This document shows, in pieces, positions 2,108-5,527 of a stretch of 45,820 nt of DNA (the stretch's first letter is position 1; the number at the start of each line of letters is the position of its first letter). Origin of the DNA: Desulfobacterales bacterium. Lineage in GTDB: Bacteria > Desulfobacterota > UBA8473. The stretch lies in the NCBI GenBank assembly GCA_016209225.1, contig JACQWO010000059.1:1-45820 (forward strand). The letters run 5' to 3'. Below the pieces are notes generated by a model. That model had not been told where the DNA came from. It did not search any database and was given only the letters and a program-made list of their open reading frames with translations. The position numbers and the translations under genes were made by a program.

Positions 2108-4315
2108 ATGTTTACCAAAAAAACAAAGACAAAACATACCTTTACAAATGCGATACTGCACAGCACAGTTCTGTCTCTCAAACTTTTGGAAAGATTTATA
2201 AAAGCGGATATACATATAGCCGGCGATAAAAACATACCTGATAACCCTATCCTCTATGTTGTAAACCACTTTACCAGGACTGAAACCTTTCTTCTCCCCT
2301 ATATAATCAAAAAAACAACAGACAATATACCCAATTCTCTGGCAGATTCATCCTTTTTTAAAGGAAAACTGGGAGATTATTTAACGGCTGTAGGTGCCCT
2401 GTCAGTGGATGACCCCAATCGAAACAATATCATAATAGGTGACCTCATCACCGGGAGAAAAAATTGGGTTATCTTTCCTGAAGGAGCGATGATAAAGACC
2501 AAAAAGGTAAATCGCTCGCGAAATTTCATGGTTAATTACCCGGGGAGAGAAGGCCCGATACATACGGGGTCTGCTTACCTCGTAGTCCTTTCGGAGTTCT
2601 ATAAAAGAGAGATTATATCTGCTCATAGAAAAGGGGACAAAGAAAGGGTCTCGGATTATTTGAAGAGGTTTTCCATTGAGACAATGGACGAAATCTCTAA
2701 TAAAGAAACCGTTATCATCCCTACCAACTTGACTTACTTTCCCATAAGGGCAGGAAAGAACATCATACAAACCCTGGCATCCAAGTTTGTAAAAGGGATA
2801 CCGGAACGGCTGGAAGAGGAATTGGAGATAGAGGGGAATCTGCTCTTTTCCGATTCTGATATACATGTGACTTTTGGGACACAGGTAAGGGTAAGGGAGT
2901 TTTTGGATCGTTACTATTTCAGGAAGAATAAACCTCTTTCTTCCTTAACAGAATATCTAAGAAGGCTCCTTTACGGCGATGACCCGGCAGGTTTCAATCT
3001 GGCGAGTATTTCCCGTCGGTTAACGAATCATTTTATGGATAGAATATATTCCATGGTAACGGTCAACATGGATCACCTCTTTTCATGTGGGTTACTCTCT
3101 CTGAATAAAAAAAAGACATTGGATTATCTCTTTAAATGTAAACTATTTTTAGCCTGTGAGGAGATTAAGAATGAGAAAAGGTTCAATCTTCACCCTTCCC
3201 TTGATAATCTACCCATCGAGCTGGTAGCGGATGAAAGAGAAAAAGACTATGACAATTTTGAAGATCTTGCTATAAGAGAAGGGATCATTAAAAAAAGCGA
3301 TGGCACCTATTTCATTGATACCAGTAGACTTGAAATGCCCCATGAATTCCACAAGATACGTGTAGAAAACACCATCGGGGTTATAGTTAACGAGATAGAG
3401 CATGTAAAGGATTTGTATAGAGCCATCAAGAAGGAATTTAGCCGTTCCCATAAGAAGGTTAGGTCCAAAATGGCAAACCTTCTTTCCAAAATGGATCAGG
3501 AGATGTTTAAAGAGGATTATGACAGGTATTATAAAGAGGAGCTGTCAAAACCCAGGGAAGTGGGGGCACCGTTTTATTTAAACCCAGCTAAATCAAAAAT
3601 AGGTGTACTTATCTGCCACGGTTACATGTCGGCACCCGAAGAGGTAAGACTTCTGGGAGATTTTCTTGCCAAATCCGGATACTCTGTCTATGGCCCACGC
3701 TTGAGGGGGCATGGCACCTCACCTTACAACCTGGCGGATGTTACGTGGAAGGATTGGTACGACTCTTTTAACAGGGGGTATACGGTTTTAAGGAATGCCT
3801 GTGAACGCATAGTAATCGGTGGATTTTCTACAGGAGGTACCCTGGCACTTTTGGCTGCGGCGAACAAAGAAGGTAAGATTGCAGGTGTTTTTACCGTCAA
3901 TGCTCCCTTACAGCTTAAAAGCATAAAGACGAAGTTAATCGGCCCCATTCACTTCTGGAATGAACTACTGGAGAAGTTCAATATAGAAGAAGGGAGACTG
4001 GAATATGTGGACAACCAGGCTGAGAATCCTGAAATCAACTACTCCAAAAACAGCATCAAAGGTCTGAGAGAACTGAGCCTTTTAATGGATAAAACCAGAG
4101 ACTCTCTGGTTAAGGTCTCTGCTCCTGCTCTTGTAATCCAGGAGAAAAACGATCCTGTTGTAGACCCGCGAAGTGCTTCCATTATCCTTGACAGTATCAG
4201 TTCAAAGGAAAAGGAGATATATTCATTCCAGTTCAACCGCCACGTAATCCTGCGTAAAGAAGGATGTGAAGAGGTGTTTGTTAGAATAAGAGAATTTGTT
4301 GATAGGGTTGTTTAG
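2108..4315 (+). CDS. PlsC-like acyltransferase fused to alpha/beta hydrolase
   Basis: This 735-residue protein has two enzyme domains. Residues about 30-260 resemble lysophosphatidate/glycerophosphate acyltransferases: NHFTRTE at 53-59 corresponds to the HX4D motif (His54, but Glu59 instead of Asp) and FPEG is at 123-126. Residues about 495-735 form an alpha/beta hydrolase of the lysophospholipase/carboxylesterase kind: HGYMSAPEE from 504, nucleophile GGFSTGG with Ser574, a likely acid at Asp682 in EKNDPVVD, and His712 in NRHVIL. The middle (about 280-490) matches no family I know. A plausible role is acyl transfer to, or remodelling of, membrane lipids, with the hydrolase releasing or transferring an acyl group. 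No signal peptide is obvious. It lies 21 bp before the CvpA-like gene's ATG and probably shares its transcript. Confidence 0.85.
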   Translation: MFTKKTKTKHTFTNAILHSTVLSLKLLERFIKADIHIAGDKNIPDNPILYVVNHFTRTETFLLPYIIKKTTDNIPNSLADSSFFKGKLGDYLTAVGALSVDDPNRNNIIIGDLITGRKNWVIFPEGAMIKTKKVNRSRNFMVNYPGREGPIHTGSAYLVVLSEFYKREIISAHRKGDKERVSDYLKRFSIETMDEISNKETVIIPTNLTYFPIRAGKNIIQTLASKFVKGIPERLEEELEIEGNLLFSDSDIHVTFGTQVRVREFLDRYYFRKNKPLSSLTEYLRRLLYGDDPAGFNLASISRRLTNHFMDRIYSMVTVNMDHLFSCGLLSLNKKKTLDYLFKCKLFLACEEIKNEKRFNLHPSLDNLPIELVADEREKDYDNFEDLAIREGIIKKSDGTYFIDTSRLEMPHEFHKIRVENTIGVIVNEIEHVKDLYRAIKKEFSRSHKKVRSKMANLLSKMDQEMFKEDYDRYYKEELSKPREVGAPFYLNPAKSKIGVLICHGYMSAPEEVRLLGDFLAKSGYSVYGPRLRGHGTSPYNLADVTWKDWYDSFNRGYTVLRNACERIVIGGFSTGGTLALLAAANKEGKIAGVFTVNAPLQLKSIKTKLIGPIHFWNELLEKFNIEEGRLEYVDNQAENPEINYSKNSIKGLRELSLLMDKTRDSLVKVSAPALVIQEKNDPVVDPRSASIILDSISSKEKEIYSFQFNRHVILRKEGCEEVFVRIREFVDRVV

Positions 4316-4336: not shown

Positions 4337-4801
4337 ATGAACTCGCTGGATATAGTAATTATTTTCATAGTAGGTATAAGTATCGTCTTTGGGGTAAAAA
4401 GGGGACTGATTAAGGAGAGTTTTACTCTCTTTGCCTTGATCTTAGGTATAGTCATTGCCAGCAGGTCATATATAGGCGGGGCAAAGATCCTGGGAAAAAT
4501 AATTCATAACCCTAATGTCGCCAATATAGCGAGCTTTGTTGCAATATTTCTAATAGTAGCTATTCTGCTAACCTTCATCGGCATGCTTCTAAAAAAGCTG
4601 GTCAGGTTGGTTCAACTGGGCTGGATTGACAGGTTGGGTGGGGCAGCCTTTGGTTTTATAAGGAGTGCCATTATTGTAGGTGTATTCCTGATACTTATAA
4701 CCAAATATCCTATCCTTGGTTGGGACAAATGGGCTAAGGGGGCAAAAACGGCCCCCTTTTTCCTCCACTTAATCGAATCTTTACAGAAACTGATCCAGTA
4801 A
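4337..4801 (+). CDS. CvpA-family membrane protein
   Basis: This 154-residue integral membrane protein has about four hydrophobic segments and opens MNSLDIVIIFIVGIS, followed by GVKRGLIKESFTL. That layout is characteristic of the CvpA/colicin V production family. In other bacteria such proteins are linked to envelope homeostasis, and their exact biochemistry is unclear. I chose ATG at 4337 because TTGGGGGG at 4322-4329 sits at ribosome-binding distance. The TTG at 4322 would bury that site. It follows the acyltransferase-hydrolase fusion closely, consistent with an envelope-related operon. Confidence 0.85.
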   Translation: MNSLDIVIIFIVGISIVFGVKRGLIKESFTLFALILGIVIASRSYIGGAKILGKIIHNPNVANIASFVAIFLIVAILLTFIGMLLKKLVRLVQLGWIDRLGGAAFGFIRSAIIVGVFLILITKYPILGWDKWAKGAKTAPFFLHLIESLQKLIQ

Positions 4802-4859: not shown

Positions 4860-4889
4860 TTGCAATTAGCCCCCTGATTATCTTATAAT
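4860..4889 (+). promoter_or_regulatory. sigma70-type promoter for the RHH/MazF module
   Basis: TTGCAA at 4860-4865 and a perfect TATAAT at 4884-4889 are separated by 18 bp. The AAAGGAGG ribosome binding site follows at 4901-4908. The promoter lies over the upstream in-frame ATG at 4888, which supports ATG 4915 as the true antitoxin start. Confidence 0.6.
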
Positions 4890-4914
4890 GAATAAGATTG
4901 AAAGGAGGTTAATT

Positions 4915-5190
4915 ATGCCATCTACAAGTACCCTGCGTAAAGCAAAACTGACAGTAACAATCAGCGGTGATGTGGTTAATGAAATAGACGAGATTGCAAA
5001 AGAAAAAGGAACTCCAAGAAGTCAGGTAATGGAAGAAATGCTGCGCGATTGGCTGCTGAAATCAAAAAAGAGAGCGATTGAAAAAGACATTGAGGCTTAT
5101 TACCTGTCTCTTACGGAAAAGGAGGAGACGGAAGACAGAGAATGGACCAAGATAGCGGCTGAAAGTGCAAAGAGGACATGGAATGACTGA
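4915..5190 (+). CDS. ribbon-helix-helix antitoxin
   Basis: This 91-residue protein has an N-terminal ribbon-helix-helix fold. A short beta strand, KLTVTISGDVVNEIDEIA, is followed by KGTPRSQVMEEMLRDWL, then a charged tail ending in KRTWND. MazE/CopG-type antitoxins have this order: the N-terminus binds operator DNA as a dimer and the tail wraps the toxin. The start at 4915 is set by AAAGGAGG about 7 bp upstream and by the promoter position. The end overlaps the toxin start by a few bases, so the pair is translationally coupled. Confidence 0.85.
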   Translation: MPSTSTLRKAKLTVTISGDVVNEIDEIAKEKGTPRSQVMEEMLRDWLLKSKKRAIEKDIEAYYLSLTEKEETEDREWTKIAAESAKRTWND

Positions 5191-5527
5191 GTATCCAAAA
5201 AGAGGAGAGATATATTTAGTTAATCTGCCTTCAAAGCCAAAGGACATGAAGAATCGCCCTGCCCTGGTAGTTTCTTTAGATATTCGGAATAAGTTAGCTA
5301 ATGATATAACTGTTGTTCCTTTATCTACAAATCTCAGGCCATCTCCTACCCATGTTTTGCTTCAAGAGGGTGAAGGTGGTTTATCAAAGGCATCTATGGC
5401 TAAATGTGAACAGGTAACAACCATGGACAAATCCTTACTTATAAGAGGCCCTTTTGCAGGCAAGATAAATGACGGAAAGATGAAAGAAATAGAAAAGGCA
5501 ATTATGATAGCCATTGGGGTAATATAA
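5183..5527 (+). CDS. MazF/PemK-family toxin, mRNA interferase
   Basis: This 114-residue protein has the MazF/PemK layout: KRGEIYLVNLPS near the N-terminus, NRPALVVSLD, then VVPLSTN, and KCEQVTTMDKS in the last half. In the family the Arg of the first strand and the Ser/Thr in the PLST region contribute to sequence-specific RNA cleavage. The length is typical. I chose ATG 5183, overlapping the antitoxin TGA at 5188-5190 and preceded by AGAGGA. The upstream GTG at 5165 is less likely. The gene end overlaps a truncated universal stress gene on the other strand. Confidence 0.9.
   Translation: MTEYPKRGEIYLVNLPSKPKDMKNRPALVVSLDIRNKLANDITVVPLSTNLRPSPTHVLLQEGEGGLSKASMAKCEQVTTMDKSLLIRGPFAGKINDGKMKEIEKAIMIAIGVI

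Follow-up and report, generated by a model that had tools for sequence, protein, structure and literature searches.

The window, by which we mean the whole 45,820-nucleotide stretch analysed here (contig JACQWO010000059.1 of a Desulfobacterales bacterium), carries a single open frame in which an LPLAT/GPAT-like acyltransferase is followed by a GPAT_C-like region and an alpha/beta hydrolase (Table 1). The start codon of this fusion gene is uncertain, the similarity in two close relatives starting only at about position 2121.

Table 1. Features of the fusion gene and its downstream neighbour, in positions of the window.
Feature	Coordinates	Strand	Remarks
Fusion gene: LPLAT/GPAT-like acyltransferase, GPAT_C-like middle, MGL-like alpha/beta hydrolase	2108..4315	+	735 aa
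LPLAT catalytic domain, ~aa 24-215	2177..2752	+	PF01553; alignment A4
Motif I NHFTRTET (HX4E)	2264..2287	+	His54 2267-2269; Glu59 2282-2284
Motif III FPEGxxxKxK, aa 123-132	2474..2503	+	P124, E125, G126 45/45; K130 44/45
Motif IV region PTNLTYFPIR, aa 205-214	2720..2749	+	P205, N207, P212 in 44/44 rows having the residue
GPAT_C-like middle third, ~aa 216-445	2753..3442	+	PF19277; hhalign
Alpha/beta hydrolase domain, aa 486-735	3563..4312	+	Closest solved relatives are bacterial monoacylglycerol lipases
Nucleophile elbow GFSTG	3821..3835	+	Ser574 3827-3829
Asp682, predicted triad acid	4151..4153	+	Alignment with solved lipases
His712, predicted triad base	4241..4243	+	Alignment with solved lipases
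CvpA/colicin V production-like membrane protein gene	4337..4801	+	PF02674 E 2.7e-34; directly downstream of the fusion

In a Pfam scan of the fusion protein, Hydrolase_4 (PF12146) matched residues 497-715 (E 1.5e-19, 70.7 bits), and hmmscan placed the Acyltransferase family PF01553 on residues 35-160 with E 2e-4 and 21.6 bits, which does not reach the cut-off of 23; a six-frame search of the genome gave the same region 25.5 bits, above the cut-off. When ten homologues were scanned singly, seven passed the PF01553 cut-off, and all 39 family members gave a match at E<=1. The open frame, the Pfam matches and the relatives all agree with the core of an earlier note on this DNA, which had described an acyltransferase with an HX4E motif I fused to a hydrolase with Ser574. 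Relatives of as little as about 25% identity keep the full architecture, and the fusion is therefore not a product of chance; an assembly or frameshift artefact was also considered as its source, and was ruled out by the many genomes with intact frames. AlphaFold2 models were of low confidence, with a mean pLDDT of 38.4 for the full protein (6 rows) and 39.7 for the N-terminal 456 aa (7 rows).

The distribution of the fusion was surveyed in 395 sampled genomes of one phylum. A search with the full protein returned 76 of these at E<=1e-15, many through the hydrolase only, and A4, a 28-row profile of the N-terminal two thirds of the fusion, returned 54 at E<=1e-8. Strong A4 matches (E<=1.4e-57) numbered 45, in 44 genomes; 43 of them sit in frames of 667-1055 aa that extend to the Ser574 position, and the other two (G232 and G201) are fragments truncated at contig edges. 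The remaining eleven matches have E values of 3e-14 or higher and span about 100 positions; ten are in frames of 217-315 aa and one is in a 698-aa frame. The acyltransferase module free of a hydrolase domain was not found in this 395-genome sample, with at most four candidates scored per genome. A scan of named genomes, which reaches close relatives only, added five MAG contigs labelled Deltaproteobacteria whose proteins are 69-94% identical to the fusion. The fusion had initially been called unusual, a description that holds in part: it recurs in 44 of the 395 genomes, and plant and algal chains of reverse order exist according to the available part of PMC12526585.

Among plasmids, 112 records matched, none of them with a single place that spans 80% of the query; the 20 listed of the 112 match on the hydrolase side. 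Of 11 loci in viral contigs, ten matched on the hydrolase side and one by the N-terminal part, and a second scan returned the same N-terminal contig only. A contig filed as viral and carrying phage-like frames ends in a gene for the module (L084:4797-6440; NHFARFET, 25% identity), and may represent either the junction of a provirus or an assembly chimera.

An alignment of the 45 homologues has His54, Arg57, Glu59, Pro124, Glu125 and Gly126 each in 45/45. The residue equivalent to Glu59 is Asp in all 34 GPAT relatives examined, which comprise the 20 best-scoring PlsB loci of the phylum, 13 short GPATs (~500 aa) and E. coli PlsB. The 13 are those returned by a pattern-free choice with the PlsB profile from 15 short-form loci, and the remaining two (L133, L134) read RHLSEFDW, likewise HX4D. 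Three further PF01553 genes of the source genome also carry Asp (NHISYLD, NHLSFLD and NHQSWVD). The earlier note had proposed that Glu59 may mark a distinct subfamily, and had suggested looking for Glu at this position in homologues with the same fusion; that search, with Glu in every homologue against Asp in every GPAT relative, bears the proposal out. Judged from the alignment, Glu59 is a family-fixed trait of the fusion, and its reading as an outlier mutation is ruled out. As a pattern, HX4E fits the LPLAT superfamily (HX4D/HX4E) and fails the HX4D of the PlsB class.

Evidence that such a pair may be catalytic comes from LpxL and LpxM. In the available part of PMC6286764, alanine at H132 or E137 of LpxL brings activity down 1000- or 3000-fold, respectively, E127 of Acinetobacter baumannii LpxM is critical, and the crystal structure of the latter enzyme places His and Glu 7.6 angstrom apart, so that the exact role of the Glu can differ from that of the Asp in a dyad. 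The accessible portion of PMC3087551 gives HX4D for E. coli LpxL and HX4E for LpxM, with which PMC6286764, in its own available part, disagrees (LpxL being H132/E137); the mutant data favour the latter. By analogy with these two enzymes, a His/Glu pair can work. The usual motif III carries an arginine (FPEGTRS or EGxRSR), which motif III of the fusion is without, and glycerol-3-phosphate is for this reason only a putative acceptor.

The middle third, which the earlier note had left unassigned, resembles the start of the C-terminal region of PlsB/GPAT enzymes. In hhalign comparisons with PlsB plus the short GPATs, A4 gave a probability of 96.6% (E 4.8e-10, 298 columns), the middle alone 94.0% (E 1.4e-7) and the catalytic part alone 61.3% (E 7.9e-5); controls, made for the whole module only with a reversed and five column-shuffled profiles, each against three targets, stayed at or below 1.1% with E values of at least 0.048. 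Against E. coli PlsB alone the match was weak (probability 12%, E 0.0023) and collinear through motifs I-IV into GPAT_C, and the one solved structure matched by A4 was a bacterial PlsB, at E 0.3. At E<=1, PF19277 (GPAT_C) was found in 19 of the 39 members, with a best E of 2.3e-6; with a cut-off of 25 bits, L032 passes (27.6), and L046 (21.2) and the fusion protein (12.7) are below. The match is restricted to profile positions ~33-145, about the first third of GPAT_C, and Y314, H323, R418, N421 and N428 of the middle third are invariant across the rows that reach them. From these profile comparisons we read the N-terminal two thirds as GPAT/PlsB-like, more PlsB- than PlsC-like, and we do not file the module as PlsB because its motif I departs from HX4D. 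The initial label 'PlsC-like' was thus right as to an acyltransferase and too narrow, the N-terminal two thirds being collinear with PlsB-class GPATs. Alongside full-length PlsB, the phylum has stand-alone GPATs of ~500 aa with the motif NHRSNxDY (L120-L132); the two that were scanned (L126 and L129) have PF01553 and the first half of GPAT_C.

A2, a 39-row profile of the family, has its best solved-structure matches in bacterial monoacylglycerol lipases, through the hydrolase part (7e0n, E 2.7e-60). Ser574, Asp682 and His712 are all present in the fusion protein and align with the solved lipases, as in an MGL-like hydrolase. Of 43 rows that reach the Ser574 position, 34 have Ser and nine have Gly, with HX4E intact in all nine. 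In the family f42 (L046-L053, all eight recovered) the aligned Ser, Asp and His are all gone, HD replaces HG after the first strand, and the domain is still full-length; going by these residues, f42 is a predicted pseudo-hydrolase clade. Among the rows outside f42, two (L043 and L045) have Glu at position 682 and one has Asn. G092 has the fusion in tandem (L041:1103-5510), and the ninth loss of the serine is in one of the two copies, where Ser is replaced by Gly and Asp by Asn; the sister copy has an intact triad and an altered FPEG-K motif, and the decay of the pair is partly complementary. The two losses lie in separate, fully supported clades, and at least two changes are forced in a program count that excludes unlabelled rows.

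Mean identities of the hydrolase and catalytic domains in f42 are 0.54 and 0.68, a ratio of ~0.79 that is the lowest of six groups; in the other five they are 0.76/0.77, 0.61/0.67, 0.84/0.80, 0.63/0.55 and 0.61/0.71 (ratios 0.86-1.15). The apparent relaxation of the f42 hydrolase domain is modest, its ratio being little below the 0.86 of the next group. As far as the alignments tell, the acyltransferase motifs are the invariant part of the protein, and some relatives have dispensed with the hydrolase triad; with the serine gone in nine homologues, hydrolysis would not be required everywhere. G037 has an additional stand-alone hydrolase (L019:1495-2406) about 40% identical to the C-terminal domain of the fusion, and similar stand-alone hydrolases are present in several other sampled genomes.

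A cvpA-like gene is also found 3' of the fusion in G002, G004 and G006, which belong to the same family as the window. It is followed in the window by a ribbon-helix-helix/PemK-MazF-type toxin-antitoxin pair (4888-5527), with related genes at the same place in one relative, G002 (the genome of both L059 and L002). On the other side, the genes directly upstream of the fusion in G002 and G005 are presumably ruvC-ruvA-ruvB, and a gene that we take to be ruvB-like lies ~3.7 kb upstream in G004. Similarity between the window and L059 (G002) ends at ~2084, where the ruvB-like gene of L059 has its 3' end and 21-24 bases remain to the start codon of the fusion; positions 1-2087 of the window differ from L059, with an open frame (1-315) that resembles a transposase remnant and a small helix-turn-helix gene (684-974) among them. 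The sequence between the ruvB-like gene and the fusion is different in G004 too, and the comparison suggests insertions or rearrangements just upstream of the fusion.

Clustering of the neighbourhoods of 25 stretches found no partner conserved family-wide; the gene calls were crude, some stretches came from the same genome, and the fusion was recognised in 23 stretches and missed in L073 and L075. Seven of 42 fusion-bearing genomes have a GDPD gene immediately adjoining the fusion and co-oriented with it, upstream in G037, G134, G249, G310, G346 (f31) and G032 (f26), and downstream in G284 (f88). The search of these 42 genomes, from which G201 and G232 were excluded as holding fragments only, gave 35 GDPD matches in total, and all seven adjacent genes exceed the PF03009 cut-off. 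With crude gene starts, GDPD and fusion share 4 bp in L056 and have a 3-bp gap between them in L063. Random placement at an assumed 3000 genes per genome would give ~0.02 adjacencies, and three independent origins would have P 2e-6; the adjacent rows lie at three places of the tree (the f31 clade, L014 and L035), for which the program counts two changes with unlabelled rows excluded. GDPD frees glycerol-3-phosphate from deacylated phospholipids, and glycerol-3-phosphate is the GPAT acceptor; the gene pair is therefore chemically sensible.

The adjacency is absent in 35 of the 42 genomes, GDPD was not detected in 16 of the 42, and the GDPD of the source genome is on another contig than the fusion. 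Detection was 25/34 in genomes outside f42 against 1/8 in f42 (Fisher P 0.0026), a scarcity that is suggestive, being one contrast between related genomes, some of them incomplete, with f42 a single clade. A second recurring neighbour, a divergent gene with the motif SGGVDS accompanied by others, stands beside the fusion in G110, G164 and G294 (f57, f70 and f90; L067, L068 and L069). We take the SGGVDS gene to resemble an ATP-pyrophosphatase and its companions to resemble ferredoxin genes, and we see no lipid role in this pair. Because a gene pair with no apparent lipid role thus also recurs in three families, adjacency alone is a weak argument.

On balance we lean towards the view that the fusion is a conserved two-enzyme glycerolipid protein, in which a GPAT/LPLAT acyltransferase and a lipase recycle or remodel phospholipids. 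Glu59, standing where Asp is usual, would form the dyad with His54, the putative general base, and FPEGxMxKxK would supply contacts to the acceptor or its phosphate, the GPAT_C-like part coming next. The Ser574/Asp682/His712 serine hydrolase would free acyl chains from a mono- or lysoglycerolipid, the putative substrates, and in some lineages the neighbouring GDPD would yield glycerol-3-phosphate. The resulting cycle would deacylate, regenerate the glycerol(-phosphate) acceptor and re-acylate; its pathway, direction and role in vivo are those that we infer from the predicted activities. PlsY and three other PF01553/LPLAT genes are present in the source genome, which makes it unlikely that phosphatidate depends on the fusion alone. 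With distinctly less confidence, we tentatively propose a hitherto undescribed class of bifunctional bacterial glycerolipid recyclers, in which a His/Glu GPAT-like enzyme and a lipase might couple deacylation to re-acylation within a single chain, linked to GDPD in some lineages and with pseudo-hydrolase descendants that may keep the acyltransferase only.

A different weighting of the two halves would make the acyltransferase the essential activity and the alpha/beta domain accessory or regulatory, partly a pseudo-enzyme, even where the triad is intact. All eight f42 members are triad-less with the domain still full-length, one tandem copy in a separate, well-supported clade has also lost Ser and Asp, and the identity ratio of f42 is the lowest of the six, if only slightly under 0.86. 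We nevertheless regard this as unlikely, since Ser574 is retained in 34 of the 43 rows, the ratio stays at 0.86-1.15 across the five other groups, and GDPD, frequent outside f42 and scarce inside, is distributed as though the deacylation pathway had been lost there, in what is a single comparison. The opposite weighting, in which Glu59 inactivates the acyltransferase half, leaving a mere lipid-binding platform on a hydrolase, would account for the departure from the Asp seen in 34/34 GPAT relatives, for the complete triad of the fusion protein and for its marginal PF01553 score of its own (21.6 against 23 bits). A dead site should drift, however, and His54, Arg57, Glu59 and the PEG of motif III are kept in 45/45 while Ser574 is lost in 9/43; a His/Glu pair is moreover used by LpxL and LpxM in the available part of PMC6286764. 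We find this reading improbable, and the fallback of the earlier note, that only the hydrolase is active, is contradicted by the same pattern, in which the nine homologues that lack the serine keep HX4E.

Two further schemes would join the halves in one reaction. The single chain with both sites, and a module of which the sample yielded no hydrolase-free form, would suit a CoA-independent transacylase that passes an acyl group from a lipid via Ser574 to an acceptor in the acyltransferase half; the f42 members have no serine with which to do so, and we consider this scheme the least credible of all. Scarcely more plausible is a synthase of neutral lipids or of the wax/phytyl-ester type, on the model of plant PES, for which the available part of PMC12526585 describes an alpha/beta hydrolase with an acyltransferase-like region whose motif 1 has His and Asp/Glu; the domain order of PES is opposite to that of the fusion, and the middle of the fusion is GPAT_C-like. 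The two-enzyme glycerolipid protein thus remains the reading that we prefer.

Among known systems, PlsB-class GPATs (PF01553 with GPAT_C PF19277, including short forms of ~500 aa) have the collinear motifs I-IV and the start of GPAT_C in common with the fusion, which differs from them in Glu for Asp, FPEGxMxKxK, the first third of GPAT_C only and the added C-terminal hydrolase. PlsC-type LPLATs share HX4[D/E] and FPEG, and a two-row profile of the source genome's PlsC-like proteins matched the fusion with E 1.1e-7 over 117 columns (hhalign); the three other PF01553 proteins of that genome have Asp, occupy frames of 214-329 aa and are without a hydrolase. Monoacylglycerol lipases and Est30-type carboxylesterases (7e0n, 3rm3 and 1tqh) align with nearly the whole C-terminal domain, triad conserved, and are, unlike the fusion, stand-alone chains of ~250 aa. 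We know of no fusion for LpxL or LpxM, whose acceptor differs from the putative glycerol acceptor of the fusion. The likeness to them, drawn by description only, lies in the experimentally supported His/Glu (PMC6286764, in its available part). Plant and algal PES, also compared by description only, combine a hydrolase and an acyltransferase-like region in one chain as the fusion does, with the hydrolase before the acyltransferase where the fusion has the opposite order (both according to the available part of PMC12526585); they are predicted chloroplast proteins and the fusion is bacterial.

A literature search by titles among open-licence papers, which does not imply absence from print, did not find the fusion described among the titles listed. 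Hydrolase-acyltransferase chains (PES, in the available part of PMC12526585) and His/Glu pairs (LpxL/LpxM) are already known; apparently new, in that it was not found among those titles, is a His/Glu acyltransferase-hydrolase combination fixed across a phylum sample, with pseudo-hydrolase descendants. The decayed-hydrolase clade and the tandem duplicate offer natural experiments on which half is indispensable. If active, the fusion would join deacylation and re-acylation in a single-chain enzyme of Deltaproteobacteria, a group in which phospholipid turnover has, to our knowledge, been little studied. Whether or not it is active, it displays a lineage-fixed Asp-to-Glu difference at the catalytic-dyad position of a GPAT-like enzyme, beyond the lipid A acyltransferases in which His/Glu is known.
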